Shown one piece after another: positions 45,017 through 63,283 of a stretch of DNA of 64,000 nt (within the stretch, counting starts at the first letter, position 1; every line of letters starts with the position of its first letter). The notes under the pieces were generated by a model. The model ran no database searches. It was not told where the DNA came from and saw nothing but the letters and a program-made list of their open reading frames with translations. Source of the stretch: Nocardioides aromaticivorans (GTDB lineage: Bacteria > Actinomycetota > Actinomycetes > Propionibacteriales > Nocardioidaceae). Location of the stretch: NCBI RefSeq assembly GCF_013408525.1, contig NZ_JACBZM010000001.1, forward strand, positions 2,480,001 through 2,544,000, read 5' to 3'. A program made the position numbers and the translations under genes.

Positions 45017-45020
45017 GAGT

Positions 45021-45033
45021 TGAACTTAGTTCA
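45021..45033. promoter_or_regulatory. Cluster operator 1: perfect TGAACTTAGTTCA
   Basis: A 13-base perfect palindrome immediately upstream of the SnoaL pair (minus strand), in the gap shared with the acyl-CoA dehydrogenase at 45120. Confidence 0.75.
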
Positions 45034-45086
45034 GTTGAGAGACGGCTGTCCAGCGTTCTTGCCCGGATGCGGCCACGGACTTAAAC

Positions 45087-45099
45087 TGAACTCACTTCA
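45087..45099. promoter_or_regulatory. Cluster operator 2: TGAACTCACTTCA
   Basis: One base away from the palindrome (G to C at position 9). It lies 21 bases before the GTG start of the acyl-CoA dehydrogenase and 66 bases from operator 1. Confidence 0.7.
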
Positions 45100-45119
45100 A
45101 TACGATTCGGAGGATCCCC

Positions 45120-46232
45120 GTGAACCCGTGGCCCGAGCTCGATCCCGCACTGATGGCGCCCGTCGCGGAGCGTGAGGAGCTGCGCCAGGTCGTCCGCGCC
45201 CTGCTCGAGAAGGAGGCCGGCCACGAGGCCGTCCGGGCGGCGGCGGACTCCTCCGGAGGCTGGTCGCCGGACCTGTGGCAGCGCCTGAACGCAGAGCTCG
45301 AGATCGGCAGGCTCGCCGTGCCGGAGGACCTCGGCGGGCATGGCTACGGGTTCGCCGAGCTGGGCGTCGTCCTGGAGGAGTGCGGCGCTGCGCTGCTGCC
45401 CGAGCCGGTGCTGGGGTCGGCGGTGCTCGGCTGCCAGGCGCTCGCCGCCGCCGACGACCCCGCGTCCGTGGCGGACCTCCGCGAGCCTGCGCTCGCAGGT
45501 GACCTCGTCGTCGCCGTGTCGGTCGGCGGCGAGGAGGTCGTCGCGGACCGGACGGCCGACGGCGGCTGGACCGTCTCGGGCCTGCGGACCCGCGTCCTGG
45601 ACGGCGCCGCGGCCGACGTCCTCGTCATCGACGCCGCGGCGGCGGACGGTCCCCTGCTCCTGGGGGTCCGGCGCGAGGACCTCGAGGTGACGAGCCGTAC
45701 GACGATGGACCTGACCCGCCGACAGGCGGACGTCCGGAGCGCGTCGGCCCCCGCCCGGCTCGTGGTCGGGCCCGCGCGCTTCGCGGAGGTGGCCGAGCGA
45801 CTTCGCCTGGTCGCCGACGCGGCCGTCGCGGCCGAGCACGCCGGCATCGTCGGGGAGCTCCTCGACCAGGTCGTGGGCCACGTGACCCAGCGCGAGCAGT
45901 TCGGACGTCCCATCGGCTCCTTCCAGGCGATCAAGCACCGCCTCGCCGACGTGCTGGTCGATCGCGAGCGCGCGCGCTCCGCGTCGCGGTACGCGATGGC
46001 AGCGCTCGACGCAGGGGGCGCGGATGCCGCCCTCGCGGTGGCGGTCGCCTCCGCGGTGTGCGCCGACGCGGTCGTGCGCACGGCGCACGAGACCGTGCAG
46101 CTGCACGGGGGGATCGGGTTCACCTGGGAGCACCGCGCGCACTACTACCTCCGCCGTGCCCTGGGCGACGAGGGCCTCTTCGGTGGCAGCCGCGGGCAGC
46201 GGGCGCGGGTCGCCGACCTCGTCGGCGTCTGA
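45120..46232 (+). CDS. Acyl-CoA dehydrogenase family protein (short, FadE28/29-like)
   Basis: A 370-residue flavoprotein that would desaturate an acyl-CoA at the alpha-beta bond. The C-terminal domain is well conserved (TQREQFGRPIGSFQAIKHRL; HETVQLHGGIGFTWEHRAHY), but the middle beta domain is weakly conserved. Such short forms often work as one half of alpha2beta2 heterotetramers for bulky substrates, as in steroid side-chain degradation; a partner could be one of the other two dehydrogenases in the cluster. Start GTG 45120 follows CGGAGGA. Own promoter with the cluster palindrome. Confidence 0.85.
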   Translation: MNPWPELDPALMAPVAEREELRQVVRALLEKEAGHEAVRAAADSSGGWSPDLWQRLNAELEIGRLAVPEDLGGHGYGFAELGVVLEECGAALLPEPVLGSAVLGCQALAAADDPASVADLREPALAGDLVVAVSVGGEEVVADRTADGGWTVSGLRTRVLDGAAADVLVIDAAAADGPLLLGVRREDLEVTSRTTMDLTRRQADVRSASAPARLVVGPARFAEVAERLRLVADAAVAAEHAGIVGELLDQVVGHVTQREQFGRPIGSFQAIKHRLADVLVDRERARSASRYAMAALDAGGADAALAVAVASAVCADAVVRTAHETVQLHGGIGFTWEHRAHYYLRRALGDEGLFGGSRGQRARVADLVGV

Positions 46233-46278
46233 CCCGGACCCGCCGCGCGGGCCACGCCGGGCCGCGCCGGGCCACGCC

Positions 46279-47607
46279 TCAGGCGGTGACCCGCGCGGCC
46301 GCGGTCGCTGCGGCGGCCAGCCCGAACACGAGGGCGGGGGCGAGCCCGCCGGCGTAGGCGCGGTGGTAGAGCCCGCCGCTGTCGGAACCGGCGCAGAGCA
46401 GCCCGAGGAGGGGAAGGCCGTCGGTGCCGAGGACCCGGGCCCGGTCGTCGGTCCGGATGCCGTGGAAGGTGAAGGTCACCGCCGGCTCGCACTCGATGAC
46501 GTACCACGGGCCCTCATCGATCGGCGCTGCGTCGTTGCGCCGGGCCGGCTCGAGGGGCTCGCCGGCGGCGGCCGCGCGGTTGAACTCCTCGATCGCCTTC
46601 GCGATCGCGGCGCCGTCGTACCCCCACTCCTCGGGCAGGTACTCGAGCTCGTCGAGGGTCTCGGCCAGGCCCACGCGCCCGCCGCGGCGGCTGGCGATCG
46701 CGAACTTGTCGACGGCGACGGCGCCCTCGACGTACGACGCGACGATCCAGTCGCGGTGCACGCGGGCGTCGCAGACCAGCAGGCCGCGGGCCTCCGGCTG
46801 CTCGAGCAGGGCCATGGTGGTGAGGTGGTCGCCGAGGGTCTCGTCGGTGAAGCGCCGGCCCTCGACGTTGAGCAGGAGGGCGTGCTCGCTGTAGTAGAGC
46901 GACAGGTCCACGAAGTCGGACGGGTCCGCGAACGGCACACCGCTCGGCACGAGGTGGCCGTAGAAGCCGGCGTCCTCCGGCCCCGTGGCGGCACCGACCG
47001 CGGTCGCCAGCCGGTAGCCGGCACCTGAGCTGTGCGGGTTGGCGCGCAGCTGCAGGTCGCCGGCGCGGGGGTGGACCTTCTCGCGCAGCATCTCGGGGTC
47101 GCCCTGGAGGCCGCCCGTCGCCAGCAGTGTCCACGTCGCCCGCACTTCCGCGGGTCCGTCCGGACCGGTCAGCTCCGCTCCGACGACCCGGCCGTCCTGC
47201 GTGAGCAGCCGGGAGGTCTGTGTCCGCAGGCGGACCTCGCCGCCGGAGCGGACCACGAGCTGGCGGCACAGGTCGACGTACTGGTTGGTGTCGAACTGGT
47301 GGCCGCGCCCGAAGCCGAGGAGCGGGACGGGGTCCTTCGCCTCCACGCCGAGCGAGCGGATCCACTCGATGCCGTCGGCGAACCGGTCGACCAGCGCGTG
47401 CCGGAGCGCCCGGTCGCCGCGGGGGTTCACGGCGTCCATCACCTCGTGCGAGGGCGCCGTCCAGGCATAGCCCGCGAAGCGGGCGGATCCGCCGACGTCG
47501 TCGCCGATCTCCACGACGACGACCCGGAGGCCGTCCTTCGCCGCTCGGGCGGCCGCGGTCAGGCCGGCCATCCCTCCGCCGATCACCAGCAGGTCCGTGT
47601 CGACCAT
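46279..47607 (-). CDS. FAD-binding dehydrogenase, fumarate reductase/3-ketosteroid dehydrogenase-like
   Basis: A 442-residue FAD_binding_2 flavoprotein. The FAD motif is LLVIGGGMAGLTAAARAAKD, with EIGDDVGGSARFAG after it. The C-terminal FAD segment (LLCAGSDSGGLYHRAYAGGL) and TFTFHGIRTDD substrate-domain part are intact. Relatives include KstD, which introduces a double bond next to a ring ketone, and fumarate or urocanate reductases. In this CoA-catabolic setting, ring desaturation or reduction is the best guess. It is divergent from the MFS gene, sharing a promoter region with a cluster operator. Confidence 0.82.
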   Translation of the reverse strand: MVDTDLLVIGGGMAGLTAAARAAKDGLRVVVVEIGDDVGGSARFAGYAWTAPSHEVMDAVNPRGDRALRHALVDRFADGIEWIRSLGVEAKDPVPLLGFGRGHQFDTNQYVDLCRQLVVRSGGEVRLRTQTSRLLTQDGRVVGAELTGPDGPAEVRATWTLLATGGLQGDPEMLREKVHPRAGDLQLRANPHSSGAGYRLATAVGAATGPEDAGFYGHLVPSGVPFADPSDFVDLSLYYSEHALLLNVEGRRFTDETLGDHLTTMALLEQPEARGLLVCDARVHRDWIVASYVEGAVAVDKFAIASRRGGRVGLAETLDELEYLPEEWGYDGAAIAKAIEEFNRAAAAGEPLEPARRNDAAPIDEGPWYVIECEPAVTFTFHGIRTDDRARVLGTDGLPLLGLLCAGSDSGGLYHRAYAGGLAPALVFGLAAAATAAARVTA

Positions 47608-47649
47608 GTCCGCCTCTCCCGTCGTCCTGTGATGTGCGTTACCCTAAAC

Positions 47650-47667
47650 CAAACTCACTTCAGTTCA
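47650..47667. promoter_or_regulatory. Cluster operator 3 (two overlapping degenerate copies)
   Basis: CAAACTCACTTCA (47650-47662) and TCACTTCAGTTCA (47655-47667) each match TGAACTCAGTTCA in 10 of 13 bases. They lie between the divergent flavoprotein and MFS genes. Confidence 0.6.
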
Positions 47668-47678
47668 AAGGAGATGGC

Positions 47679-49313: not shown

Positions 49314-50110
49314 ATCACCACGCCCCCGACCCACGCCGGTTCGCCGGGTGCACGGCACTCGTCACCGGTGGCGGCTCCGGCATCGGAGCGGCCGTCGTAC
49401 GACGCCTGGCGGCCGAGGGTGCGCGCGTGCACGTGGCGGACGTGGTCGCCGACAACGCGACCCGTGTCGCAGAGTCCGTCGGAGGTGCGGCGTACCCGGT
49501 CGACGTCACGGACGGGGCCGCCGTCGACGCGGTCGTCGACGCGGTGGTCGCGACCGCGGGGAGCCTGGACGTCGTCGTGCACACGGCCGGGGTCGACGAC
49601 CCCGTGGCGAAGGGGTGGCTCCAGGAGGCCCGTGAGGCGGGCGCCCGCGTGGATGTCGTCTCGCGGCTCGCCGACGACCAGTGGCGCCGGGTGGTGGCGG
49701 TCAACCTCGACGGCACCTTCCACGTGCTGCGCGCCGCTGTGCGGGTGATGAAGCAGCAGGGGAGCGGCTCGATCGTGACCGTCGGTTCGTCGGCGTCCTT
49801 CGACACGCTCGTGGGCTACCCGCACTACGCCGCCTCGAAGGCCGGCGTGCACGCGCTGACGCAGTCGGTGGCCAAGGAGGCGATCGCGTACGGGGTCCGG
49901 GTCAACACCGTGGCGCCGGGACCCGTCGACACGCCGATGGCCGGTCGCACCCCGGCGTCGGTGCGGGCCGCGATGGAGGCGACCGGCGCCGTCGGCTACG
50001 CCAGCCCCGAGGAGCTCGCCGACAACATCTGCTACCTCGCCTCCCCGGGGGCGAGCAATGTCGTGGGCGCGGTCCTGCTGAGCAATGGCGGAAGGTTCAC
50101 GGTCTCGTGA
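49310..50110 (+). CDS. Short-chain dehydrogenase/reductase
   Basis: A 266-residue classical SDR: cofactor motif VTGGGSGIGAAVV (near 19-31), HTAG in place of NNAG, and the catalytic Ser-Tyr-Lys in VGSSASFD and YPHYAASKAG. DVVADN after beta-strand 2 suggests NAD. An insertion of about 12 residues after HTAGVDDP (WLQEAREAGARVD) may shape the substrate pocket. It probably oxidises a hydroxyl of a cluster intermediate. Coupled to both neighbours by ATGA and GTGA overlaps. Confidence 0.88.
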   Translation: MNHHAPDPRRFAGCTALVTGGGSGIGAAVVRRLAAEGARVHVADVVADNATRVAESVGGAAYPVDVTDGAAVDAVVDAVVATAGSLDVVVHTAGVDDPVAKGWLQEAREAGARVDVVSRLADDQWRRVVAVNLDGTFHVLRAAVRVMKQQGSGSIVTVGSSASFDTLVGYPHYAASKAGVHALTQSVAKEAIAYGVRVNTVAPGPVDTPMAGRTPASVRAAMEATGAVGYASPEELADNICYLASPGASNVVGAVLLSNGGRFTVS

Positions 50111-52098: not shown

Positions 52099-52138
52099 GC
52101 TCCCGGGCGGCGTGCCGGACGAGATTCCCGCACATCCC

Positions 52139-52168
52139 TTGACAGGTGTACTGAACTCAGTTCAAACT
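52139..52168 (+). promoter_or_regulatory. Promoter of the main catabolic operon
   Basis: A perfect -35 TTGACA (52139-52144) and a -10-like CAAACT (52163-52168) are separated by 18 bases. The spacer and -10 overlap cluster operator 4, as expected for repression by steric block. Confidence 0.6.
52152..52164. promoter_or_regulatory. Cluster operator 4: perfect TGAACTCAGTTCA
   Basis: A 13-base perfect palindrome lying between the -35 and -10 elements of the operon starting at 52206. Confidence 0.78.
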
Positions 52169-52172
52169 AAAC

Positions 52173-52185
52173 TGAATCCAGTTCG
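52173..52185. promoter_or_regulatory. Cluster operator 5: TGAATCCAGTTCG
   Basis: Matches operator 4 in 10 of 13 bases and is exactly 21 bases from it, so both would sit on the same DNA face. Confidence 0.7.
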
Positions 52186-52205
52186 GTTCTGAAAGGACAA
52201 CGACC

Positions 52206-52994
52206 ATGGTGGACACCGACCACGTTCTTCTCGAGAAGGACGGCGACGTCGCCCGGGTGTGGCTCAACCGCCCCCACAAGAAGAACGCCGTCACGGTGGA
52301 GCTGCTGCACCGCCTCGACGAGATCATCAAGGAGGTCGACGCCGACCCCGACCTGAAGGTCCTCGTCCTGCGCGGCGTGCAGAACCAGTTCTGCTCCGGC
52401 TTCGACCTCGACGAGCTGCTCTCCGACTTCATCGGCACCACCACCGCCATGGACGTCGCCGTGCTGAGCGCGCAGGTCTGTGACCGGCTCTACTCGATGA
52501 ACACCCCGTCGGTCGCGGTGCTCGAGGGCTATGTCACCGCCGGTGGCTTCGAGCTGATGATCTCGTGCGACTTCGCCATCGCCTCCGACGACGCGAAGAT
52601 CGGCGACTTCCACATCCGCCGCGCGCTCTTCGGCGGCGCCGGCCCGATCTACCGCCTGCCGCGGATGATCGGCCTGCGCAAGACCAAGGAGCTCATGCTC
52701 ACCGGCAAGCTCCTGTCCGGCCAGGAGGCCAAGGACTTCGACCTGATCAACGACTCGGCGCCGGCCGACCAGCTCGACCAGCGCGTCGACGAGTTCATCG
52801 GCACCCTCACCGACAAGTCCCCCTTCATGATGAAGCTGACGAAGATGGCCATCAACCAGGGCCTCGACGCCGACGTGAAGTCGCTGATGATCATGGAGCA
52901 CCTCGCCGTCGGCAACGCGCTGCAGTCCGAGGACGGCAAGGAGGGCGTCCAGGCCTTCCTCCAGAAGCGCGAGCCCAAGTGGGTCGGTCGCTGA
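52206..52994 (+). CDS. Crotonase-family protein (enoyl-CoA hydratase-like, altered active site)
   Basis: A 262-residue crotonase-fold protein. The oxyanion hole segments are QFCSGFDLDELL and YVTAGGFELMISCDFAIA. The first catalytic glutamate is present (E116 in GGFEL), but the residue at the second catalytic position, 20 residues on, is His136 (IGDFHIRRALFGG) instead of glutamate. This argues against a simple hydratase and suits a C-C hydrolase, isomerase or other crotonase chemistry. It heads an operon from the operator-bearing promoter. ATG 52206 follows GAAAGGACAACG. Confidence 0.88.
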   Translation: MVDTDHVLLEKDGDVARVWLNRPHKKNAVTVELLHRLDEIIKEVDADPDLKVLVLRGVQNQFCSGFDLDELLSDFIGTTTAMDVAVLSAQVCDRLYSMNTPSVAVLEGYVTAGGFELMISCDFAIASDDAKIGDFHIRRALFGGAGPIYRLPRMIGLRKTKELMLTGKLLSGQEAKDFDLINDSAPADQLDQRVDEFIGTLTDKSPFMMKLTKMAINQGLDADVKSLMIMEHLAVGNALQSEDGKEGVQAFLQKREPKWVGR

Positions 52995-53008
52995 CCTGAT
53001 GCCCGTCC

Positions 53009-53028
53009 GCCGGATCGACCGATCCGGC
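53009..53028. promoter_or_regulatory. 20-base near-perfect palindrome between the crotonase and DUF35 genes
   Basis: GCCGGATCG (53009-53017) and CGATCCGGC (53020-53028) are exact reverse complements around AC. It lies in a 66-base gap inside the operon. It may be an internal operator, an RNA processing hairpin or an attenuator. Confidence 0.55.
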
Positions 53029-53060
53029 AACTGCGCTGGATCCTGCGAGGAGCTGTAGCC

Positions 53061-53477
53061 ATGACCGTCGACACGACCGTGCCCGAAGCACCCACGCTGA
53101 GGGGCAGCCGATGCACCGAGTGCGGCAACGTCGCCTTCCCCGAGGCGACGGGCTGCCAGCGGTGCGGAGGGACCCGACTGTCCTCCGTCGACCTGGCCGG
53201 GCGCGGCACCGTCTGGGCCCACACCGTCCAGCGGTTCGCGCCCAAGTCTCCTCCGTACGTGCCGCCGGCGGAGGGCTTCACGCCCTTCGCCGTCGGGTAC
53301 GTCGAGCTGCCGGACGGCGTGAAGGTCGAAGCCGTCCTCGAGGCCACCACGGTCGACGACCCGGCCGAGCTCGCCGGGGCCGAGGTCACCCTCGTCGCGG
53401 TCGACCCCGTCCCGCGCTTCGCCACCGACCCGTGGCTGCGGAGCTCGGGGCGCACGGCCGAGGGGGCCGGCCGATGA
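53061..53477 (+). CDS. Zn-ribbon/OB-fold DUF35 protein (thiolase partner)
   Basis: A 138-residue protein. A rubredoxin-like zinc ribbon (CTECGNVAFPEATGCQRCGG, residues about 18-37) is followed by an OB-fold domain (GTVWAHTVQRFAPKSPPYVP; FAVGYVELPDGVKVEAVLE). Such proteins form obligate complexes with thiolase-like subunits; the DUF35 domain of ChsH2 with the Ltp2 aldolase is the best-known case. The ATGA overlap with the thiolase-like gene supports a one-to-one complex. Confidence 0.92.
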   Translation: MTVDTTVPEAPTLRGSRCTECGNVAFPEATGCQRCGGTRLSSVDLAGRGTVWAHTVQRFAPKSPPYVPPAEGFTPFAVGYVELPDGVKVEAVLEATTVDDPAELAGAEVTLVAVDPVPRFATDPWLRSSGRTAEGAGR

Positions 53478-54628
53478 GCGGCGAGGTCTCCATCATCGGG
53501 GCCGGCCTCTCCAGGTTCGGTCGCCAGCCCGGTGTCACCGGCCGCCAGATGGCGGTCCAGGCCGTCCACGCCGCCCTGGCCGACGCCGGCATCGCCTGGC
53601 CCGACGTGCAGGTCGCCTTCGGCGGCAGCGACGGCGCCGGGCTCGCCGACACCCTGGTGGCGGAGCTCGGCCTCACCGGCATCCCGTTCACCAACGTCAA
53701 GAACGGGTGCGCCACCGGCGGCAGCGCACTCGTCGCCGCCGTCAACGCGATCCGATCCGGCGCAGCGGAGATCGCGCTCGCCGTCGGCTTCGACAAGCAC
53801 CCCCGGGGCGCCTTCGACCCCCGCCCCGAGGACTGGGGCCTGCCCGTGGGCTACGGCGAGGCCGGCCTGATGGTCACCACCCAGTTCTTCGCCGTGAAGA
53901 TCGCGCGCTACCTCCGGCAGCACGACCTGCCGGAGAGCCTGCTCGCGTCGATCGCGGCCAAGGCCTACCGCAACGGGGCGCTCAACCCCAACGCGTGGCG
54001 CCGCGAGCCGATGACCGAGGAGCAGGTGGCCGGCGCCGCGATGGTCAACGACCCGCTCACGCAGTACATGTTCTGCTCCCCGGGCGAGGGCGGGGCGGCG
54101 ATCGTCGTCGCGACGCCCGCGGTCGCGAAGCGGCTCGGCGCGCGGGCGGTGAAGCTGCTCGCGGTCGCTCCCCGCACCCGCGGCTTCGGCACCTTCGAGG
54201 TCTTCAGCCCGGCGATCCAGGGCGAGGGCGCGCCGACGAGCGTCAGCACCGTCGCCGCGCAGGCCGCGTTCGAGATGGCCGGTGTGGGACCCGAGGACAT
54301 CGACGTCGCCCAGCTCCAGGACACCGAGGCCGGTGCCGAGCTCATGCACCTGGCCGAGACCGGCTTCTGCGCCCACGGCGAGCAGGAGAAGTGGATCGCC
54401 AACGGCGACACCGAGATCGGCGGCCGGCTCCCGGTCAACACCGATGGCGGCTGCATCGCCAACGGCGAGCCCATCGGTGCCTCCGGCCTGCGGCAGGTCC
54501 ACGAGATCGTCACCCAGCTCCGCGGGGAGGCCGGGGCCCGCCAGGTCCCCGGCGACCCGCGCCTCGGCTTCACCCACGTCTACGGCGCGCCGGGCATCAG
54601 CGCCTGCGCGGTCCTGGAGGCGTCATGA
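53474..54628 (+). CDS. Thiolase-superfamily protein (SCP2/Ltp2-like, probable aldolase)
   Basis: A 384-residue thiolase-fold protein. The nucleophile cysteine position is filled (C79 in VKNGCATGGSA) and a C-terminal cysteine, C378, occurs in GAPGISACAVLE. The usual GHP histidine is replaced by Glu332 in IANGEPIGASGL. True thiolysis is therefore doubtful; Ltp2-type proteins with a DUF35 partner do retro-aldol cleavage instead. Here it may release a short acid or ketone unit from a beta-hydroxyacyl-CoA. Coupled to DUF35 and to the acyl-CoA dehydrogenase by ATGA overlaps. Confidence 0.88.
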   Translation: MSGEVSIIGAGLSRFGRQPGVTGRQMAVQAVHAALADAGIAWPDVQVAFGGSDGAGLADTLVAELGLTGIPFTNVKNGCATGGSALVAAVNAIRSGAAEIALAVGFDKHPRGAFDPRPEDWGLPVGYGEAGLMVTTQFFAVKIARYLRQHDLPESLLASIAAKAYRNGALNPNAWRREPMTEEQVAGAAMVNDPLTQYMFCSPGEGGAAIVVATPAVAKRLGARAVKLLAVAPRTRGFGTFEVFSPAIQGEGAPTSVSTVAAQAAFEMAGVGPEDIDVAQLQDTEAGAELMHLAETGFCAHGEQEKWIANGDTEIGGRLPVNTDGGCIANGEPIGASGLRQVHEIVTQLRGEAGARQVPGDPRLGFTHVYGAPGISACAVLEAS

Positions 54629-55818
54629 CCACCCCCGAGCTCGACGCGTTCGTCGCCGACGCCCGCGCGTGGCTCTCCTCCGTCGCGGCTCCCCGCACCC
54701 AGCGCCCCTGGGGCGAGGGCAGCGACGCCGTCGCGGTCTTCGAGAACTGGACCGAGGACGAGGAGCGCGCGGAGACCGATCGCATCCGCGCCTACGAGCA
54801 GGCCAAGTACGACGCCGGCTTCGGGGCCATCACCTGGGGCCCGGAGTACGGCGGCCGAGGCCTCCCGGTGTCGTACCTGCTGGCCTTCCGGCGCGCCGAG
54901 GCCGAGTACGACGTCCCGCGGCGCACCGAGATGTTCCCCGTCACCCAGCAGCTGATCGCGCCGACGATCGCGCAGTGGGGGACCGAGGAGCAGCGCTCGA
55001 CGTACGTCCGGGCGATGCTGCGCACCGACGTGATCGCCTGCCAGCTGTTCTCCGAGACCGAGGCCGGCTCCGACCTGGCGGCGGTCCGCACCCGTGCCGT
55101 CCGCGACGGCGACGGCTGGCGGCTGGACGGCCACAAGGTCTGGACGTCCGGTGCCCGCGTCGCCGACTACGGCGTCGCGATCACCCGCACCGACCCGGGG
55201 AGTGCGAAGCACGCCGGCCTGACGGCCTTCATCGTCCCGATGGACGCGCCGGGCGTGACGGTCCGCCCGATCCGCCAGATGACCGGGGGCTGCTCGTTCA
55301 ACGAGGTCTACCTCGACGGCGTGCACCTCGACGACGCGCATCGGCTCGGTCCCGAGGGCGCGGGCTGGAAGGTCGCGCTGACCGTGCTCGCGTCCGAGCG
55401 CCTGGACTCCGGCAGCCTGGGCCTCGAGAACGCGGACCAGGCCGTCGAGCTCGCTCGCCATCTCGGCCGGCCGCTGACCGAGCTCGAGCGGGACGCGGTC
55501 GCCGACCTGGTCACCCGCAGCTACGTCCAGCGGCTCACCGGCATGCGCGTGGCCGCCGCGGTCGTCGCCGGCGCCGACGCCGGGCCGGAGGCCTCCGTCG
55601 GCAAGCTGCTCGCGACCGACACGATGGCGCGCACCTCCGAGGTCGTGCGCCTGCTGCTCGGCCCGGACCTCACCGTCCAGGGCGACCGCTGGGGCAGCTG
55701 GGCGTGGACCGAGCACGTGCTCGGCGCGCCGGGCTACCGGATCGCCGGCGGCACCGACGAGATCCAGCACAACATCCTCGCCGAGCGCGTGCTCGGCCTC
55801 CCGAGGGAGCCCCGCTGA
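54625..55818 (+). CDS. Acyl-CoA dehydrogenase
   Basis: A 397-residue acyl-CoA dehydrogenase. Signs: AITWGPEYGGRGLPVSYLLA near the N-terminus, CQLFSETEAGSDLAAVRTRA and WTSGARVADYGVAITRTDP in the FAD-binding middle domain, and GGTDEIQHNILAERVLGLP at the C-terminus. It would introduce a double bond into a CoA-activated substrate and pass electrons to ETF. It belongs to the fadE17/caiA-like set common in cyclic-acid and terpenoid catabolism. Its stop overlaps the phosphotransferase start. Confidence 0.92.
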   Translation: MTTPELDAFVADARAWLSSVAAPRTQRPWGEGSDAVAVFENWTEDEERAETDRIRAYEQAKYDAGFGAITWGPEYGGRGLPVSYLLAFRRAEAEYDVPRRTEMFPVTQQLIAPTIAQWGTEEQRSTYVRAMLRTDVIACQLFSETEAGSDLAAVRTRAVRDGDGWRLDGHKVWTSGARVADYGVAITRTDPGSAKHAGLTAFIVPMDAPGVTVRPIRQMTGGCSFNEVYLDGVHLDDAHRLGPEGAGWKVALTVLASERLDSGSLGLENADQAVELARHLGRPLTELERDAVADLVTRSYVQRLTGMRVAAAVVAGADAGPEASVGKLLATDTMARTSEVVRLLLGPDLTVQGDRWGSWAWTEHVLGAPGYRIAGGTDEIQHNILAERVLGLPREPR

Positions 55819-56810
55819 TGGCCACCGACACGCGGCCCACCCCGGCCGAGCTGCACGCCCTCGACCTCCAGGAGCGGGTCGTCGCCGGCCTCCGGGCCAG
55901 CGGGTACGACGGCGTCGCGACCGCGCTGGAGCCGATGCTCGGCGGGCACTCGGGCCTCACCTACAAGCTCGCCGTCGACGACCAGTGGTTCGTCGTCAAG
56001 GCGGTGCCGCCCGGCCAGCGCTCGATTGGCCGCCACGACATGCTGCGCCAGGCGCGGATCATGGCCGCGCTCGCCGGCACCGACGTCCCGGTTCCGCGGA
56101 TCTGCGCCACCGACGAGGTCGAGCCGGCGTGGTTCGCGATGGAGCTGGTCGCCGGCGAGTCCCTCGAGCCGGTGCTGGACGACCCCGCGGTCGAGCCCGC
56201 CCTCGCCGCGGCCCGGATGCTGCGCGCCGCCGAGATCCTGCCGCGGCTGCACCGGCTGCCCCTCGACGGGCTGCCCGTCGACGGCGAGCCGCTGTCGCCG
56301 GGTGACGAGCTCGCCCGCTGGAGCCGCACGATGGGCGCCGTACCGCCCGAGCTGGTGCCGGGTGCCGCCGAGCTCGAGCGATTGCTCGCCGCGTCGGTCC
56401 CCGAGGCCGTCGCGCCGGTGCTGGTGCACGGTGACTACCGCCTCGGCAACATCCTGTCCCGCGGCACCGAGCCCGCGGCGCTGATCGATTGGGAGATCTG
56501 GAGCCCCGGCGACCCGCGGGTCGAGCTGGGCTGGTTCCTGGTCTTCGCCGACGGCGACAACTTCCCGGGCGTCGGCCGCCACGTCCCCGGCCTGCCCTCC
56601 GTCGAGGAGCTGGTGAGCCGGTACGCCGCCGGGGGACCCGCGCCGCGCGAGCTCACCTGGTTCGACGCACTGGGCCGCTTCAAGATGGCGGCGATCATGG
56701 GCCACAACCTGCGTCGCCACCGCGAGGGCCGGCACCACGACCCGGACCAGGAGAGGCTGCCGGCCACCATCGCCCGGCTCATCGAGACCGGCACCGCCCG
56801 GCTCGGCTGA
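55818..56810 (+). CDS. Phosphotransferase (APH family), ACAD10/11- and LvaA-like
   Basis: A 330-residue APH-fold kinase. The nucleotide-binding segment is GGHSGLTYKLAVDD with KAVPP, the catalytic loop HGDYRLGNIL (near 204) and the metal-binding IDWEIWSPGDPRVELGWFL. In mammals ACAD10/ACAD11 fuse this kinase domain to an acyl-CoA dehydrogenase, and in Pseudomonas LvaA works with LvaC; both phosphorylate 4-hydroxyacyl-CoA before phosphate elimination. The next gene, 43 bases on, is the matching ACAD10/11-type dehydrogenase, so I infer the same role and not antibiotic resistance. Confidence 0.85.
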   Translation: MATDTRPTPAELHALDLQERVVAGLRASGYDGVATALEPMLGGHSGLTYKLAVDDQWFVVKAVPPGQRSIGRHDMLRQARIMAALAGTDVPVPRICATDEVEPAWFAMELVAGESLEPVLDDPAVEPALAAARMLRAAEILPRLHRLPLDGLPVDGEPLSPGDELARWSRTMGAVPPELVPGAAELERLLAASVPEAVAPVLVHGDYRLGNILSRGTEPAALIDWEIWSPGDPRVELGWFLVFADGDNFPGVGRHVPGLPSVEELVSRYAAGGPAPRELTWFDALGRFKMAAIMGHNLRRHREGRHHDPDQERLPATIARLIETGTARLG

Positions 56811-56853
56811 GCCTCGATCGACTCCACCGCAACGACGCGAGAAGGAACCCCCT

Positions 56854-58077
56854 GTGGACTTCGAATTCACCGCCCGCACCGCCGACCTCGCGGCGAGGCT
56901 CGAGACGTTCATGGCCGAGCACGTGCTCCCCGCCGAGGCCGTGTACGACGCCCAGGTCGCCGCGAACGCCAACCCCCACGAGCAGCCGCAGGTCATGCGC
57001 GACCTGCAGCGGGTGGCGCGCGAGCAGGGCCTGTGGAACCTCTTCATGACCCACGGCGACCGCGGCGCGGGGCTCACCAACCTCGAGTACGCGCCGCTCG
57101 CCGAGATCGTCGGACGCTCGATCATCGGCAACGAGGCGATCAACTGCTCGGCGCCCGACACCGGCAACATGGAGATCCTCGCCATGTACGGCACCGAGCA
57201 GCAGCAGAAGGAGTGGCTGGACCCGCTGCTCGCCTGCGAGATCCGCTCCGCCTTCGCGATGACCGAGCCGGCGGTCGCGAGCTCGGACGCCCGCAACATC
57301 ACCTCCACGATCCGCCGCGACGGCGACCACTACGTCATCAACGGCCGCAAGTGGTACACCTCCGGCATCCTCGACCCGGACTGCCGGCTCATCATCTTCA
57401 TGGGCAAGTCCGACCCCGAGGCGCCGACGTACCGCCAGCAGAGCATGATCCTGGTCCCGGCCGACGCCGACGGCGTCGAGGTGGTCCGCGACCTCCCGAT
57501 GTTCGGCTACCACGACCGCCTCGGCCACGGCGAGGTCACCTTCACCGACGTGCGGGTGCCCGCCGAGAACATCCTCGGCGAGGAGGGCGGCGGCTTCGCC
57601 ATCGCCCAGGGCCGGCTGGGCCCGGGCCGGATGCACTACGCCATGCGCGCGATCGGGATGGCCGAGCGCGCGCTGCAGCTGATGTGCCAGCGGGCCGCGA
57701 GCCGGGAGGCCTTCGGCGGGCCGCTCGCCGAGCAGGGCGTCGTGCGGGAGTGGATCGGGCGCAGCCGGATGGAGATCGACCAGATCCGCCTGCACACCTT
57801 CAAGGCCGCCTGGCTGATGGACACCCGTGGCAACGCCGCCGCCCGGACCGAGGCCGCGGCCATCAAGGTCGCCGCGATGGAGGTCGCCCACCAGGTCGTC
57901 AACCGCGCCGTCCAGACCTGGGGCGCCGCCGGGGTCAGCGACGACACCGTGCTCGCCCGCCTCTACGCCCTCACCCGGGCCCTGCAGGTCGCCGACGGTC
58001 CGACCGAGGTGCACCTGCGCAGCATCGCGCTGCAGGAGCTCAAGAAGTACGACGCACCGAAGGAGGCGCGCGCGTGA
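56854..58077 (+). CDS. ACAD10/11-type acyl-CoA dehydrogenase (LvaC-like)
   Basis: A 407-residue acyl-CoA dehydrogenase homologue with the subfamily's very conserved blocks: NCSAPDTGNMEILAMYGTE, FAMTEPAVASSDARNITST, RKWYTSGILDPDC, RQQSMILVPADADGVEVV and AQGRLGPGRMHYAMRAIGMA. In ACAD10/11 and LvaC this protein acts on the 4-phosphoacyl-CoA made by the kinase, yielding an enoyl-CoA that re-enters beta-oxidation. Start GTG 56854 after GAAGGAACC. Paired with the upstream kinase and overlapping the next SDR. Confidence 0.92.
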   Translation: MDFEFTARTADLAARLETFMAEHVLPAEAVYDAQVAANANPHEQPQVMRDLQRVAREQGLWNLFMTHGDRGAGLTNLEYAPLAEIVGRSIIGNEAINCSAPDTGNMEILAMYGTEQQQKEWLDPLLACEIRSAFAMTEPAVASSDARNITSTIRRDGDHYVINGRKWYTSGILDPDCRLIIFMGKSDPEAPTYRQQSMILVPADADGVEVVRDLPMFGYHDRLGHGEVTFTDVRVPAENILGEEGGGFAIAQGRLGPGRMHYAMRAIGMAERALQLMCQRAASREAFGGPLAEQGVVREWIGRSRMEIDQIRLHTFKAAWLMDTRGNAAARTEAAAIKVAAMEVAHQVVNRAVQTWGAAGVSDDTVLARLYALTRALQVADGPTEVHLRSIALQELKKYDAPKEARA

Positions 58078-58829
58078 GCGGGCAGCTCGACGGCAGGGTC
58101 GCGCTGGTCACCGGAGCCACCCGCGGCCTCGGCCGCGCGATCGCCGAGGCGATGGCGGTGGCCGGGGCGACCGTGGTCGTGTCCAGCCGCAAGGCCGACG
58201 CGTGCGAGCGGGTCGCCGCCGAGATCACCGCGTCGACCGGCGTCAAGGCCTTCCCCCTGCCGCTGCACGTCGGCGACTGGGACGCGATCGAGCCCGCCGT
58301 CGACGCCGTCGTGGCCGAGCACGGCCGGATCGACGTCCTCGTCAACAACGCCGGCATCGCCCCGCTCGCCCCGTCGGCGAAGGACGTGACCGAGGCGCTC
58401 TTCGACAAGACGATCGACGTCAACCTCAAGGGCCCCTTCCGCCTGATGGCGGTGGCCGGTGCCCACATGTACGCCGCGGGTCGCGGCTCGATCATCAACA
58501 TCTCGAGCATCGGCGCGGAGCGTCCCAGCCCGCCCGAGGCGACGTACGCCGCCTCGAAGAACGGGCTCAACGCACTCACCCGTGCCTTCGCCCAGGAGTA
58601 CGCACCGCACGTGCGGGTCAACTGCGTGATGCCCGGCGCGTTCGCGACCGACATGGCCGGCGACTGGGACGACGAGTTCATCGGCCTGGTCACCGACCGG
58701 CTCCCGGCGGAGCGCCTCGGCGACCCGAGGGAGCTCGCCGGCATGGTCGTGCACCTCGCCTCGGACGTCGCGGGCTACACGACCGGCGCGCTGATCCCGG
58801 TGGACGGTGGCCGGACGGCGGTCTACTGA
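58074..58829 (+). CDS. Short-chain dehydrogenase/reductase
   Basis: A 251-residue classical SDR: VTGATRGLGRAIAEAMAVAG at the cofactor site, VLVNNAGIAPLAPSAKD, catalytic ISSIGAERPSPPEATYAASK and a C-terminal YTTGALIPVDGGRTAVY. SRKADACERV after beta-strand 2 suggests preference for NADP(H). FabG-like members oxidise or reduce beta-hydroxyacyl-CoAs. GTG start overlaps the dehydrogenase stop and its stop overlaps the next SDR. Confidence 0.9.
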   Translation: MSGQLDGRVALVTGATRGLGRAIAEAMAVAGATVVVSSRKADACERVAAEITASTGVKAFPLPLHVGDWDAIEPAVDAVVAEHGRIDVLVNNAGIAPLAPSAKDVTEALFDKTIDVNLKGPFRLMAVAGAHMYAAGRGSIINISSIGAERPSPPEATYAASKNGLNALTRAFAQEYAPHVRVNCVMPGAFATDMAGDWDDEFIGLVTDRLPAERLGDPRELAGMVVHLASDVAGYTTGALIPVDGGRTAVY

Positions 58830-59596
58830 TGGCCACCTCGCCCCTGTCCATGTTCGACCTGAGCGGGCGGGTCGCCGTCGTCACCGGCGCCTCCTCGGGC
58901 CTGGGCGACGGCTTCGCGCGGGCGTTGGCCGCGGCCGGTGCCACCGTCGTCGCCGCCGCCCGGCGGGTCGAGCGCCTCGAGGCGCTGGCCGCCGACGTAC
59001 CGGGTCTGGTGCCGGTGGCCTGCGACGTCACCGATGCCGGCGACCGCGAGCGCCTGGTGGCGACGGCCGCCTCGATCAACGGCGGGATCGACGTCCTCGT
59101 CAACAACGCCGGCATGCCCGGACCGCCGGACGCGCTGACCGAGACGCCCGAGGAGCTGGACGCGATCCTCGCCCTCAACCTCACGGCCGGCATCCGGCTG
59201 GCGGTCGAGACCGTGCGCGCCCTCCCCGAGGACCGCGGTGCCTCGATCATCAACATCTCCTCCGTGGTCGGCCTGGTCTCCACCGCCCCGATCGGCGGCG
59301 CGGGGTACGCCGCGTCGAAGGCCGCGGTCATCGGCGTCACCCGGGAGCTGGCGGGCCAGTGGGGACGGCGCGGGGTTCGTGTCAACGCGCTGGTGCCGGG
59401 CTGGTTCGATACCGAGATGACCGACGGCCTGTTCACCAACGAGAAGTCGGCCGGCTGGGTGCGCCGCAACACCATGCTCGGACGCGGCGGCCGGACCGGC
59501 GAGGTCGACGGCGCGCTGCTCTTCCTCGCCTCGGACGCCGCGAGCTACGTGACCGGGCACGTCCTGGCTGTCGACGGCGGATGGACCGCACGGTGA
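58829..59596 (+). CDS. Short-chain dehydrogenase/reductase
   Basis: A 255-residue SDR: VTGASSGLGDGFARALAAAG, ARRVERLEAL (NADP-type), VLVNNAGMPGPPDALTE, then IINISSVVGLVSTAPIGGAG with YAASKAAVIGVTRELAG and a C-terminal YVTGHVLAVDGGWTAR. It resembles gluconate 5-dehydrogenase-like and glucose-dehydrogenase-like SDRs. A second hydroxyl oxidation in the same pathway is likely. It overlaps the upstream SDR (one base) and the downstream alcohol dehydrogenase (GTGA). Confidence 0.9.
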   Translation: MATSPLSMFDLSGRVAVVTGASSGLGDGFARALAAAGATVVAAARRVERLEALAADVPGLVPVACDVTDAGDRERLVATAASINGGIDVLVNNAGMPGPPDALTETPEELDAILALNLTAGIRLAVETVRALPEDRGASIINISSVVGLVSTAPIGGAGYAASKAAVIGVTRELAGQWGRRGVRVNALVPGWFDTEMTDGLFTNEKSAGWVRRNTMLGRGGRTGEVDGALLFLASDAASYVTGHVLAVDGGWTAR

Positions 59597-60675
59597 GCGC
59601 GCTGCCGGAGACGATGCGCGCGCTGCGCCTCCACGCCTGGGGCGCCGCTCCGGAGCTGGTCGAGGTGCCGGTCCCGGTGCCGGTCGGTGCCCAGCTCCTG
59701 GTCCGCGTCGAGGCGGCCGGCCTGTGCCACTCGGACCTCCACATCATGGATGCCGCTCCGGGGCAGCTGCCCTACGAGCTCCCGTTCACCCTCGGCCACG
59801 AGGTCGTCGGCACGGTCGTCGCGGCGGGCGACGCCGTCGACCCGGCGTGGCTCGGGCGCCGGGCCGCCGTGCACGGCATCTGGTCGTGCGGGCGCTGCCG
59901 GCAGTGCCGGCGAGGCCGGGACAACTACTGCTTCGAGCTCACCGGGCCCATCGGCAACGGCATCGGGTACGACGGCGGGCTGGCCGACTACATGCTCGTC
60001 CCCGGCGTGCGCCAGCTCGTGCCGGCCGACGGCGTGGACCCGGTGGCGCTCGCGCCGCTGACCGACGCCGGCCTGACCGCGCAGCACGCGCTGCGGACCG
60101 TCGGCGCCGACCTGGCGGGGGCCACGGTCCTCGTCATCGGGATCGGCGGCCTGGGCCACCTCGCGCTGCAGCTGCTCGCGCGCCACGACCCCGTGTGCGT
60201 GGTCGCGGTCGACCCGCGTGCCGAGGCGCGCGCCCTCGGGCTCCGGCTCGGCGCCGACGCGGTCGTGGCGAGCACGATCGACGCCGCCGAGTGGCTCGAG
60301 GGCGGCCACCACGGGTCCGGGGCCGACGTGGTCCTCGACTTCGTCGGCTCGCAGGACACCATGGACGCGGCCACGCAGGTGCTCGCGCCCGGCGGCCGCA
60401 TCGCCGTCGTCGGGTCCGCCGGCGGTCGCCTCGAGGTCGCCAAGGGCGGTGACCTGCCGCGCGGCTGGGGAGTCGCCGCGCCGTTCTGGGGCTCGGCCGG
60501 CGACCTCGCCGACGTGGTCGGCCTCGCGGGCGCGGGTGTCCACGCCCGCACCGAGACCCATGCGCTGTCGGGCGCGCTGACCGCCTACGACCGGCTGCGC
60601 CGCGGCCTGGTCCAGGGCAGGGCCGTCGTGGTGCCGACCGCGAGGACAATCGACGTGGAGGAGACGAAGGCATGA
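59593..60675 (+). CDS. Zinc-dependent alcohol dehydrogenase (MDR family)
   Basis: A 360-residue medium-chain dehydrogenase. Catalytic zinc ligands lie in AAGLCHSDLHIMD and LGHEVVGTVVAAG; the structural zinc cysteines are CGRCRQCRRGRDNYC; the NAD site is VLVIGIGGLGHLALQLLA. It resembles AdhA/Had-type dehydrogenases that act on cyclic or branched alcohols, such as 6-hydroxycyclohex-1-ene-1-carboxyl-CoA dehydrogenase. I prefer GTG 59593 (GTGA overlap with the SDR), though ATG 59581 in frame would add four residues. Confidence 0.9.
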   Translation: MSALPETMRALRLHAWGAAPELVEVPVPVPVGAQLLVRVEAAGLCHSDLHIMDAAPGQLPYELPFTLGHEVVGTVVAAGDAVDPAWLGRRAAVHGIWSCGRCRQCRRGRDNYCFELTGPIGNGIGYDGGLADYMLVPGVRQLVPADGVDPVALAPLTDAGLTAQHALRTVGADLAGATVLVIGIGGLGHLALQLLARHDPVCVVAVDPRAEARALGLRLGADAVVASTIDAAEWLEGGHHGSGADVVLDFVGSQDTMDAATQVLAPGGRIAVVGSAGGRLEVAKGGDLPRGWGVAAPFWGSAGDLADVVGLAGAGVHARTETHALSGALTAYDRLRRGLVQGRAVVVPTARTIDVEETKA

Positions 60676-62186
60676 GGAAGCTGGCACAGGAGCTGGTCGA
60701 GCGGGCCGGGCAGAGCCCCGACGACGTCGCCGTCATCGACGCGGAGGGAGCCCACACCCTCGGTGAGGTCGTCGCCCGGGCCGGCGAGATCGCGGACCTC
60801 CTGGACCGGTCGCTGGCGGGCGCGCCCACGGTGCTCGTCCAGGCCGACAACACCTGGCGCACCCTCGCCGCCGCGATCGCGGTCGGGCTGCGGGGCGGGC
60901 TGGTCGCGGTCATCAGCGGGCACGCCGCCCGCTCGGAGTACGACCTCGCCCTCGAGGACATCCAGCCGGACGCCGTCATCGCCTCGCCCCACGCGGTCGA
61001 GACCTGGCAGGTCGACGACGCCGGGCTGCCGGTGGTGGGGGAGGCCTTCCCGGGCTGGTCGCTGCGCGCGGCCGCCTCCCGTCGTACCCGCGGTGTCGAG
61101 CGGTGGCGCGGCGGCGTGGCCATCGCGATGACCTCGGGGTCGACGGGTCGTCCGAAGTGCGTCGTGCAGTCCGAGGAGTCGATCCGGTACGCCGGCGAGG
61201 CCACGATCGCCGCCGTCGGCCTCCGGCCGGGGGACCCGGTCGGCGCCTTCGTCCCGTTCTCGAGCGTCGCCGCGTTCTGCTTCGGGCTCTACCTCCCGGC
61301 GCTCCTGGGCGGCCCGGTGGTGTGCCTGGACAAGTGGAGCCCCGAGGACGCGGTCGTGCTGCTGCGCGACGAGAAGGTCGCCTGGACGATGCTGGTGCCG
61401 ACGATGGCCATGCAGCTCTCGCTGGTGCCCGGGTCGTCGGGAGCGCTCACGTCGCTGCGCGCGATGACGGTCGGCGGTGGACCCATGAACGCCCGCTCGC
61501 TGGAGTCCGCCGAGCGTCATCTCGGGACCCGCTTCCTGCGGGTGTTCGGCATGTCCGAGTGCCTGGGCCACACCACCCCGCTGCCCTCCGAGCCGCCCGA
61601 GGTCCGCCTCGGCCGCGACGGACGTCCCTTCCCCGGCACGGAGCTGCGCGTGGTCGGCGACGACGGCGCCGCCCTGCCCCTCGGGGAGGTCGGCAACGTC
61701 CAGGTGCGCGGCCCCTCGCTGTTCGTCGGCTACGCCCGCAACGGCGCGCCGGTCCCGCCGGAGCTCACGCCCGACGGCTTCCTGCCGACCGGCGACCGGG
61801 CCCGCATCAACGACGACGGCACCCTCAACATCCTCGGCCGTGAGAAGCAGGTCATCATCCGGGGAGGCCGCAACATCGACATCAACGAGGTCGAGGCCGC
61901 CGTCGCCGCCATCCCGGGCGTGGCCCAGGTGTGCGTCGTACCGGTCTCCGACGACCTGCTCGGTGAGCGGGCGGCGGCGCTCGTGGTCTGGTCGGGCGAC
62001 CCCCTGGACATCGACGGGGTACGACGGGAGCTCGCCGCCGCCGACTTCCCCAAGTTCAAGTGGCCCGAGTTCGTCTACCCGGTCCCGCACCTGCCACAGA
62101 ACCGGGTGGGCAAGCTCGACCGGTCCGGTGCCGTGTCGCTCGCGTCGTCGCTCGTGGGCGGCGATGCGGCCGCGGAAGCCCGATGA
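60672..62186 (+). CDS. AMP-forming acyl-CoA ligase
   Basis: A 504-residue class I adenylate-forming enzyme. The phosphate loop is AMTSGSTGRPKCVVQSEES, the A5-type motif is VFGMSECLGHTTPLPSE, the A7 region is LPTGDRARINDDGTLN with GREKQVIIRGGRNIDINEVE, and the catalytic lysine is in NRVGKLDRSGA. It likely starts the pathway by making the CoA ester of the substrate acid. VFGMSEC departs slightly from the usual YGxTE. It is the last gene of the operon that begins at 52206 and is followed by the regulator. Confidence 0.93.
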   Translation: MRKLAQELVERAGQSPDDVAVIDAEGAHTLGEVVARAGEIADLLDRSLAGAPTVLVQADNTWRTLAAAIAVGLRGGLVAVISGHAARSEYDLALEDIQPDAVIASPHAVETWQVDDAGLPVVGEAFPGWSLRAAASRRTRGVERWRGGVAIAMTSGSTGRPKCVVQSEESIRYAGEATIAAVGLRPGDPVGAFVPFSSVAAFCFGLYLPALLGGPVVCLDKWSPEDAVVLLRDEKVAWTMLVPTMAMQLSLVPGSSGALTSLRAMTVGGGPMNARSLESAERHLGTRFLRVFGMSECLGHTTPLPSEPPEVRLGRDGRPFPGTELRVVGDDGAALPLGEVGNVQVRGPSLFVGYARNGAPVPPELTPDGFLPTGDRARINDDGTLNILGREKQVIIRGGRNIDINEVEAAVAAIPGVAQVCVVPVSDDLLGERAAALVVWSGDPLDIDGVRRELAAADFPKFKWPEFVYPVPHLPQNRVGKLDRSGAVSLASSLVGGDAAAEAR

Positions 62187-62212
62187 ACCACGGTTCCGGC
62201 GCTACGCTGATC

Positions 62213-62225
62213 TGAATTCACTTGG
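62213..62225. promoter_or_regulatory. Cluster operator 6: TGAATTCACTTGG
   Basis: A degenerate copy matching 9 of 13 bases of TGAACTCAGTTCA, 17 bases before the TetR start, as expected for autoregulation. Confidence 0.55.
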
Positions 62226-62242
62226 CGACAAGGACGGCTCCC

Positions 62243-62863
62243 ATGACAGTTGACGAGCAGACCCGTACCGAAGGCCCGCGCTCCAAGCGGCGCAGGATCC
62301 TCGACGCCGCCATCGACAACTTCGGCGGGGTGGGCTTCGAGCACACCAAGTGGGCGACCATCGCCGACGAGGTGGGGATCGGGCAGACCGCCCTCTACCA
62401 CTACTTCGAGTCGAAGGTGCACTGCCTGCTGACCATCATGAGCAACGAGCTGGAGCGCTCCCTCGAGCGGACCCGCGCGGTCACCGCCGAGGTGAGCGAG
62501 CCGGACGACAAGATCCGCGTCGCCGTGGCGGCGGCCTTCGACGTCACCGCGCGCGAGGCGCTCCAGGAGCGGATCCTGATGAGCCACCAGGACCTGCTGG
62601 TCGGCGAGCGCTCGTCTCAGCGCGAGGAGGCCGAGCGCCAGCGGGCGCGCGAGCTGGTGCGCGAGATCGAGCACGAGTGGGCCGCGCTGCTGAAGGCCGG
62701 CATGGACGCCGGCGTGTTCGCGAAGCAGGACGAGGTCGTCCTCGCCCGGCTGATGCTCGGCCTGATCAACGGCGTGTGGCGTTGGTACCGCCCGAAGGGC
62801 GCCCACACCCTCGCCGAGATCTCCGACCAGGTCGTCGCGGCCTGCGTGCGCCTGGTCCACTGA
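62243..62863 (+). CDS. TetR-family regulator, probable repressor of the catabolic cluster
   Basis: A 206-residue TetR protein. The DNA-binding part reads RRILDAAIDNFGGVGFEHTK, then IADEVGIGQTALYHYFESKV. The C-terminal part contains LGLINGVWRWYRPKGAHTLA, like the KstR2/acyl-CoA-sensing branch. It lies directly after the ligase gene. Copies of one palindrome before it and before five other transcription units of the cluster make it the best candidate for the cluster repressor; a CoA thioester is the likely inducer. ATG 62243. Confidence 0.9.
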   Translation: MTVDEQTRTEGPRSKRRRILDAAIDNFGGVGFEHTKWATIADEVGIGQTALYHYFESKVHCLLTIMSNELERSLERTRAVTAEVSEPDDKIRVAVAAAFDVTAREALQERILMSHQDLLVGERSSQREEAERQRARELVREIEHEWAALLKAGMDAGVFAKQDEVVLARLMLGLINGVWRWYRPKGAHTLAEISDQVVAACVRLVH

Positions 62864-62919
62864 CCGAACCCCGACTCCCGGGCGGGAGCGCCGGACCGGC
62901 ATGTCCGCCACCCATGAAC

Positions 62920-62932
62920 CAAATTCAACTCA
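62920..62932. promoter_or_regulatory. Cluster operator 7: CAAATTCAACTCA (weak)
   Basis: It keeps the central and right-hand bases of the motif (8 of 13 match) and sits 10 bases before the EthD start, where it overlaps the ribosome site. Confidence 0.4.
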
Positions 62933-62942
62933 GGAGCGTGTG

Positions 62943-63269: not shown

Positions 63270-63283
63270 GGTACCACGAGGCG

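Follow-up and report, generated by a model that had tools for sequence, protein, structure and literature searches.

What holds together the expression of a large catabolic gene cluster in the soil bacterium Nocardioides aromaticivorans? The window analysed here, 64,000 nucleotides of contig NZ_JACBZM010000001.1, carries between its genes a series of copies of a 13-base-pair (bp) palindrome, TGAACTnAGTTCA, and a first-pass annotation had proposed that these copies delimit a self-contained regulon of a local TetR-type regulator encoded at 62243-62863. The palindrome is real and lies far above chance. The sites, their clustering in the genome, and the way in which they are conserved and linked to the TetR gene are direct computational observations. 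Based on these data, the palindrome is probably the operator of the 62243-62863 protein. We also consider it very likely, judging from sequence, that this protein represses 12 transcription units through the sites; a coenzyme A (CoA)-thioester of the pathway substrate would probably release it.

At up to 3 mismatches to the 13-mer, the window holds 12 matches, while shuffled sequences gave a mean of 3.1 and a maximum of 7, and 0/100 shuffles reached 12. From 20 loci (our own and 19 around TetR homologues) we derived a symmetrical 21-bp matrix with the consensus GAACTGAACTCAGTTCAGTTC, in which TGAA, TTCA and the inner T and A carry most of the information, flanked by AAC/GTT arms. The element is about 19 bp long (AACTGAACTnAGTTCAGTT) and its strongest positions are TGAAnTnAnTTCA. 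The putative operators and the main-operon promoter element are listed here with the bit scores of individual sites from the 21-bp matrix:

45021..45033: operator, perfect palindrome TGAACTTAGTTCA, 30.7 bits; centre 11 bp from the start of the SnoaL pair (minus strand); in 6/6 aligned promoters
45087..45099: operator TGAACTCACTTCA, 34.2 bits; centre 27 bp from the start of the acyl-CoA dehydrogenase gene (45120-46232)
47650..47662: operator CAAACTCACTTCA, 29.8 bits; between the divergent FAD oxidoreductase (minus) and MFS-SDR-OYE (plus) units
52139..52144, plus strand: -35-like TTGACA of the main operon, followed after 18 bp by a putative -10-like CAAACT at 52163-52168
52152..52164: main-operon operator 1, perfect palindrome TGAACTCAGTTCA, 28.0 bits; just downstream of TTGACA
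52168..52180 (alternative 52173-52185): main-operon operator 2, 30.9 bits; over the predicted transcription start
62208..62220 (alternative 62213-62225): weak operator before the TetR gene, 20.0 bits; putative autoregulation
62915..62927 (alternative 62920-62932): weak operator before the EthD gene, 17.9 bits
Past the window end: four operators from the 21-bp matrix, with centres at 64062, 64571, 64638 and 72996 in window numbering

The 20 loci (649 kb) contain 156 sites at >=16 bits and 157 at >=14 bits, and 5.3 Mb of first-order Markov sequence contains 1 at >=16 bits. Reversed sequence of the same loci, left unmasked, gave 52 matches at >=14 bits and 32 at >=16 bits, since a palindrome read backwards still fits the matrix partially; likewise, the reversed plasmid loci L087 and L088, described below, gave 6 and 3 at >=16 bits. 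Once the real sites were masked together with 30 bp of flank on either side, the reversed control fell to 0 at >=14 bits, 1 at 12 and 15 at 8. The corresponding zero in masked forward sequence is true by construction and carries no information. A held-out matrix, built from 113 sites after removal of our own genome and its three nearest relatives (G142, G107 and G119), scored the 11 own sites at 17.7-35.2 bits and everything else in the own 80 kb at no more than 8.1 bits, a test that is not wholly independent because the 113 sites were gathered by a matrix first seeded on the own sites.

The first-pass annotation had listed seven sites in gaps, two of them perfect. Both perfect 13-bp palindromes are present, at 45021 and 52152, and the copies at 45087 (1 mismatch), 47650 and 52173 (3 mismatches each) were recovered as well; the one at 47650 has 3 mismatches to the bare 13-mer, yet is strong once the arms are counted. 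The two remaining sites, at 62213 and 62920, are ambiguous in register, and the bare 13-mer fits better 5 bp upstream, at 62208 and 62915, with 2 mismatches each. Such ambiguity arises because AACT occurs in the motif twice, with an offset of 5 bp, and the motif therefore matches itself at that shift. For the site before the TetR gene, the 25-bp matrix prefers the 62213 register and the 21-bp matrix 62208; for the site before the EthD gene, the 25-bp matrix ties 62920 and 62915, and the 21-bp matrix prefers 62920. In other words, the claimed site before the TetR gene exists, but is weak and ambiguous in register, as is that before the EthD gene. In the main-operon pair, the proposed distance of 21 bp is slightly favored by the 25-bp matrix, which centers the second site on 52179, but not by the 21-bp matrix, which centers it on 52174, 16 bp from the first. 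The first site does not lie on TTGACA itself: TTGACA stops 7 bp before this 13-bp site, which sits downstream.

How specific is the palindrome to this cluster? Allowing at most 1 mismatch, 7 places were found in the 5.26-Mb genome, 6 of which are within genome positions 2525021-2553002. At up to 2 mismatches to the 13-mer there are 28 places, and for this reason weak matches alone say little. The exact core TGAA-N5-TTCA occurs at 13 places, 8 of them inside the cluster; T and A flank the center in 6/8 cluster copies and A only in 2/8, while both are present in 0/5 copies elsewhere. A sequence-only model, R1, comprising 40 21-mers of own and orthologous sites (including ten own sites and the reverse complements of three), gave 16 matches at E<=10. 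These correspond to 9 places, all in 2525018-2553004, i.e. in one 28-kb stretch of the genome. Random scatter of the motif, which the first-pass annotation had named beforehand as speaking against its regulon, was not seen, and the near-perfect places cluster.

The sites are also tied to promoters. Upstream of the main operon, TTGAC is present in 10/10 and TTGACA in 9/10 aligned genomes; the operator block from TTCAAACTAAACTGAATCCAGTT onward is nearly invariant in 9/10, with a different first operator in G232, and the 16-bp center spacing of the pair recurs in 9 genomes. If CAAACT is taken as the -10 element (17-18 bp spacing), operator 1 would fall largely within the spacer and operator 2 would cover the likely start. 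In the gap between the SnoaL pair and the acyl-CoA dehydrogenase gene, both operators and a TGTCCAG are kept in 6/6 aligned loci; TGTCCAG may be read as the minus-strand -35 element of the SnoaL unit, and a -10 element at 45028-45023 would set the SnoaL start at its ATG, giving a leaderless transcript. A consensus promoter scan of 44900-63400 returned no sigma-70 site, and the -35 and -10 assignments therefore rest on conservation and spacing. The position of the sites on a conserved TTGACA promoter, or over the start, fits repression by blocking RNA polymerase.

Which protein would bind these sites? The candidate is the following gene:

62243..62863, plus strand: TetR/AcrR-type regulator, 206 amino acids, proposed repressor acting at the palindrome sites

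It is the sole regulator gene among the 28 cluster genes scanned, of which one member of the SnoaL pair is without a Pfam match. The protein matches Pfam TetR_N (PF00440; 39.5 bits, cut-off 24) and TetR_C_24 (68.7 bits), and its predicted structure has the TetR fold (mean predicted local distance difference test score, pLDDT, 92.6), matching TetR structures over residues 10-206. An alignment of 55 sequences shows a nearly invariant helix-turn-helix. Relative to the first row, identity is 47-93% in 53 of the other 54; the remaining row (23%) is a spurious wrong-strand translation.

The gene and the palindrome occur together. Among 215 congeneric genomes, 17, our own included, have a homologue of the TetR protein at E<=1e-40; sites with at most 1 mismatch average 4.18 in these 17 genomes vs 0.48 in the 198 without it (Mann-Whitney p 4e-11), and at least 3 such sites are present in 13/17 vs 3/198. 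With our own genome removed, the other 16 average 4.0 sites (p 2e-10). A second comparison makes use of the thiolase-like protein of the main operon, which is present at E<=1e-130 in 25/215 congeneric genomes, 10 of them without the TetR gene. None of these ten thiolase/DUF35 operons (186 kb) has a site at >=12 bits, whereas the 20-kb stretches around the thiolase gene in 11 loci with the TetR gene have 5-8 sites at >=16 bits. A near-identical site precedes the gene for the TetR homologue in loci L030, L031, L032 and L017. One genome, G025 (L026-L028), has four TetR homologues (78, 60, 55 and 50% identity) with matrix sites in the surrounding stretches, which raises the question of cross-talk.

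The same association is seen in other genera. In a class-wide sample of 394 genomes, 7 have a homologue and 4 of these 7 are outside the genus; sites lie beside the gene in 3 of the four loci, and none at the one with 40% identity. On the Rhodococcus qingshengii plasmid NZ_CP089607.1 (L087, 321675-362289), 15 sites at >=12 bits surround the homologue, 12 of them intergenic, and on the Streptomyces plasmid NZ_CP109481.1 (L088, a locus without annotation in the record) there are 9 such sites. Both plasmid homologues are 55-56% identical to the 62243-62863 protein. The core operon, the TetR gene and the sites are all on the 0.6-Mb Rhodococcus plasmid; the 2.35-Mb Streptomyces plasmid has the hydratase, the thiolase, the TetR homologue and sites; and a second Rhodococcus plasmid, NZ_CP014942.1, has the TetR and hydratase genes. 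With the core operon or parts of it on three plasmids, the pathway seems to travel. Altogether, genome-wide clustering, promoter conservation, co-occurrence of gene and sites, the lack of sites in the ten operons without the TetR gene, and the plasmid loci support the proposal that the local TetR protein governs a self-contained regulon.

Several observations weigh against this interpretation. The seventh place with at most 1 mismatch, at genome position 2170909, is outside the cluster; it directly precedes a DUF932 gene, adjoins a gene with a below-cut-off ParB_N match and is absent from the R1 list, and we treat this copy as chance. The E-values of R1 are modest (best 0.07), and the sites before the TetR and EthD genes, weak and of ambiguous register, were missed by R1 at E<=10. 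The genus p-values overstate independence because the genomes are related, and at most 14 candidates were scored per genome, so that a homologue could be missed. In the thiolase comparison, the count covered 11 of the 15 congeneric genomes that have both genes. The ten operons lacking TetR are further removed, with thiolase identities of 60-68% and no close enoyl-CoA hydratase; for this reason, and because the matrix was trained on positive loci, the comparison is supportive but not clean. No site at >=12 bits was found in the 1.5 kb on either side of the homologues in L020 (50%), L038 (61%) and L076 (40%); L038 has 7 sites elsewhere in its 40 kb. G080 (homologue 47%) has no site with at most 1 mismatch genome-wide and 2 matrix sites near the homologue gene. 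In the Rhodococcus locus, 3/15 sites are inside genes (12.6, 16.4 and 18.1 bits). Finally, the idea of an acyl-CoA inducer draws on fold and gene company. As a side observation on the 2.17-Mb region, the DUF932 and weak ParB_N genes there (L025:5863-8663) may belong to an integrated plasmid or mobile element.

Could the palindromes be chance or a non-regulatory repeat? The 28 genome places at up to 2 mismatches would suit this idea, but the shuffles, the confinement of the R1 places to a single stretch and the recurrence of the sites between genes around a homologue in another genus leave it a negligible probability. If the sites are bound, a different protein might bind them. The core TGAA-N5-TTCA is identical to the MetR consensus given in the literature, TGAANNNNNTTCA (PMC13393422; the same string is in the MetR paper PMC3353975), and a LysR gene, 41513-42430, is near the cluster, so that a LysR regulator of the MetR kind would be a conceivable candidate. 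MetR, however, belongs to an unrelated protein family and acts on methionine genes, and the consensus as quoted in these papers lacks the AAC/GTT arms and the inner T-n-A that our sites carry, the latter in most copies. Moreover, the top-scoring family for the LysR protein is CynR (126.5 bits, cut-off 277), and MetR does not appear among its best 25 of 53 families; the protein has no homologue in the 11 stretches with the SnoaL gene, and its sole match in 19 stretches is at 29% (G234). The sites go with the TetR gene instead, and we regard a MetR-like regulator as very improbable.

The other flanking regulator, a TetR-type protein encoded at 43395-44243, fares no better. It has a TetR_N domain and lies at the cluster edge, convergent with the SnoaL pair, but it has no homologue at >=50% coverage in the 19 stretches, including all 11 with the SnoaL gene; those stretches, found through the 62243-62863 protein, do carry sites. 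No matrix site precedes 43395-44243, and this candidate too is very improbable; both flanking regulator genes are outside the cluster, and neither is conserved with it. It is likewise improbable, if slightly less so, that the 62243-62863 protein binds the sites as an activator or mixed regulator: FasR, an activator by name, is among its weak NCBIfam matches (38.4 bits, cut-off 330), but the sites follow directly on the -35 element, cover the predicted start or are 11 bp away from start codons, which suits polymerase blocking.

We favor repression by the 62243-62863 protein, and suggest the following model. The protein would bind the palindrome as a dimer at the promoters or starts of the cluster and exclude RNA polymerase. 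The main operon would be held by two operators 16 bp apart, and the repressor's own gene by a weak site. The CoA-thioester of the pathway substrate, made by the ligase encoded at 60672-62186, would probably release the repressor and open the 12 units together.

The units, as we infer them from gene direction and gaps, each start 11-49 bp from a site center, and two sites each serve a divergent pair. They comprise the SnoaL pair, the acyl-CoA dehydrogenase, the flavin adenine dinucleotide (FAD) oxidoreductase, MFS-SDR-OYE, the main operon, TetR and EthD and, starting beyond the window end, five more, namely an SDR gene, MaoC, an ABC uptake system with two DUF1254/DUF1214 genes, and two divergent MDR genes. 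The predicted regulon is larger than the first-pass annotation had stated and extends about 10 kb past the window end. The genes are:

44253..45016, minus strand: SnoaL-like pair (44654-45016, SnoaL_2 match; 44253-44657, no Pfam match)
45120..46232, plus strand: acyl-CoA dehydrogenase; best NCBIfam model IpdE2, below cut-off
46279..47607, minus strand: FAD_binding_2 oxidoreductase, 442 amino acids
47679..52098, plus strand: MFS_3 transporter, SDR, Old Yellow Enzyme (OYE)-type reductase
52206..62186, plus strand: main operon (enoyl-CoA hydratase, DUF35/OB, thiolase-like, acyl-CoA dehydrogenase, APH, acyl-CoA dehydrogenase, SDR, SDR, MDR, acyl-CoA ligase)
60672-62186: acyl-CoA ligase of the main operon
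62943..63269, plus strand: EthD-family protein
63284..64000, continuing to 64033 past the window end, minus strand: SDR gene, with an operator centered at 64062

The two DUF1254/DUF1214 proteins that follow the ABC uptake genes are in tandem (L024:8682-11350; window numbering 68682-71350).

Does the system correspond to a described one? The first-pass annotation had held the operator to be unlike those of KstR and KstR2, and neither published operator matches. KstR, a TetR repressor of cholesterol catabolism (PMC1995591), binds as a dimer to a 14-bp palindrome (TnnAACnnGTTnnA) overlapping the -10 element, is autoregulated, and has a predicted regulon of 83 genes in M. smegmatis, much larger than the present one. 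The half-site GAAC is common to both, but KstR has TAGAAC-N2-GTTCTA with 2-bp spacing, while here it is GAAC-N3-GTTC, and the 62243-62863 protein scores 45.7 bits against the NCBIfam KstR model (cut-off 280). KstR2, the TetR repressor of a regulon for cholesterol catabolism in Mycobacterium, has the operator AnCAAGnnCTTGnT (PMC3068626), different from TGAAnTnAnTTCA here; it controls other genes, and its effector is a known CoA-thioester (PMC7807495). CAAG-N2-CTTG is in none of the 11 own sites, and the fold of our protein is near KstR2, tied with other TetR proteins.

Closer in taxonomy is SRTF1 (KR76_27130), a TetR-type steroid sensor of Pimelobacter/Nocardioides simplex, a close relative of the source organism, which also has a palindromic operator (PMC7062782, PMC7807495). 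These papers place SRTF1 in divergent orientation to kstD2, with a palindrome of 22 bp, whereas the present gene is co-directional between the ligase and EthD genes, both in the window and in P. simplex ATCC 6946 (G142), whose orthologue is 93% identical. We rejected SRTF1 as the regulator on gene context only. The N. simplex motifs given in PMC7593942 include Lcin1, TCCCGGT[C/G]ACCGGGA, unlike the present motif. Against the NCBIfam model of Bacillus FadR, our protein scores 47.6 bits (cut-off 200). Bacillus FadR and AibR are acyl-CoA-responsive TetR repressors with operators other than the present one. A search of open-licence PMC papers (subscription papers and supplements lie outside it) gave no bacterial-regulation match of the motif beyond the MetR string, the other matches being in mammalian and herpesvirus papers, and our literature search found no report of operator binding by the 62243-62863 protein. 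The regulator-operator pair appears to be new, the scheme itself is familiar, and the novelty lies in the pathway; both the regulatory switch and the pathway are apparently undescribed.

What, then, does the pathway degrade? A set comprising DUF35, thiolase-like, two acyl-CoA dehydrogenases, APH, two SDRs, ligase, TetR and EthD recurs in 15/19 homologous stretches, with identities of 75-95% for the thiolase and 70-92% for EthD. The enoyl-CoA hydratase (52206-52994) is unusually well conserved, at 83-99% in 14/19 stretches and at 87.8% on Rhodococcus plasmids, i.e. at least as well as its operon neighbors. By PDB sequence search, the closest relatives of the acyl-CoA dehydrogenase at 54625 are Tcur3483 and 4x28, which we take to be steroid side-chain enzymes, and those of the thiolase-like protein are SCP2-thiolase and benzoylsuccinyl-CoA thiolase. 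With the hydratase, the thiolase, DUF35, one acyl-CoA dehydrogenase and the FAD protein as queries, such searches retrieved general relatives; with OYE (E<=1e-60), SnoaL (E<=0.01) or the ligase (E<=1e-50) as queries, they retrieved none at these limits. Literature searches for the gene company found, among the papers listed, none evidently about the cluster and no assigned substrate. From the steroid side-chain and thiolase relatives, our guess for the substrate is a bulky alicyclic or steroid/terpenoid-like carboxylate.

The thiolase-like protein (53474-54628, next to the DUF35 gene at 53061-53477) keeps the first Cys in NGCATGG, but QDTE replaces HDCF/YDHF and GEP replaces GHP, unlike all thiolase and steroid-aldolase sets compared. 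We rejected the idea that these motifs are special to the cluster: QDTE/GEP is present in 17/17 loci with or near the TetR gene and also in the 10/10 related operons without it, and thus marks a wider subfamily. The reaction may differ from thiolysis and from that of the Ltp2/Sal aldolases (PMC12329534). We tentatively speculate, with more doubt than confidence, that a bulky acid of alicyclic, steroid-like or terpenoid-like type is the substrate of an undescribed actinobacterial pathway encoded by at least 28 genes of the cluster, in which the DUF35/thiolase-like pair perhaps catalyzes another C-C reaction and the repressor senses the first CoA-thioester.

For the biology of these bacteria, the operator provides a precise boundary for a catabolic regulon, and with it a handle for finding the pathway in other genomes and for finding the inducer by means of a reporter. 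The repressor may perhaps be usable as a biosensor for acyl-CoA or steroid-like compounds, like SRTF1. The regulon is present in several actinobacterial genera and on large plasmids.

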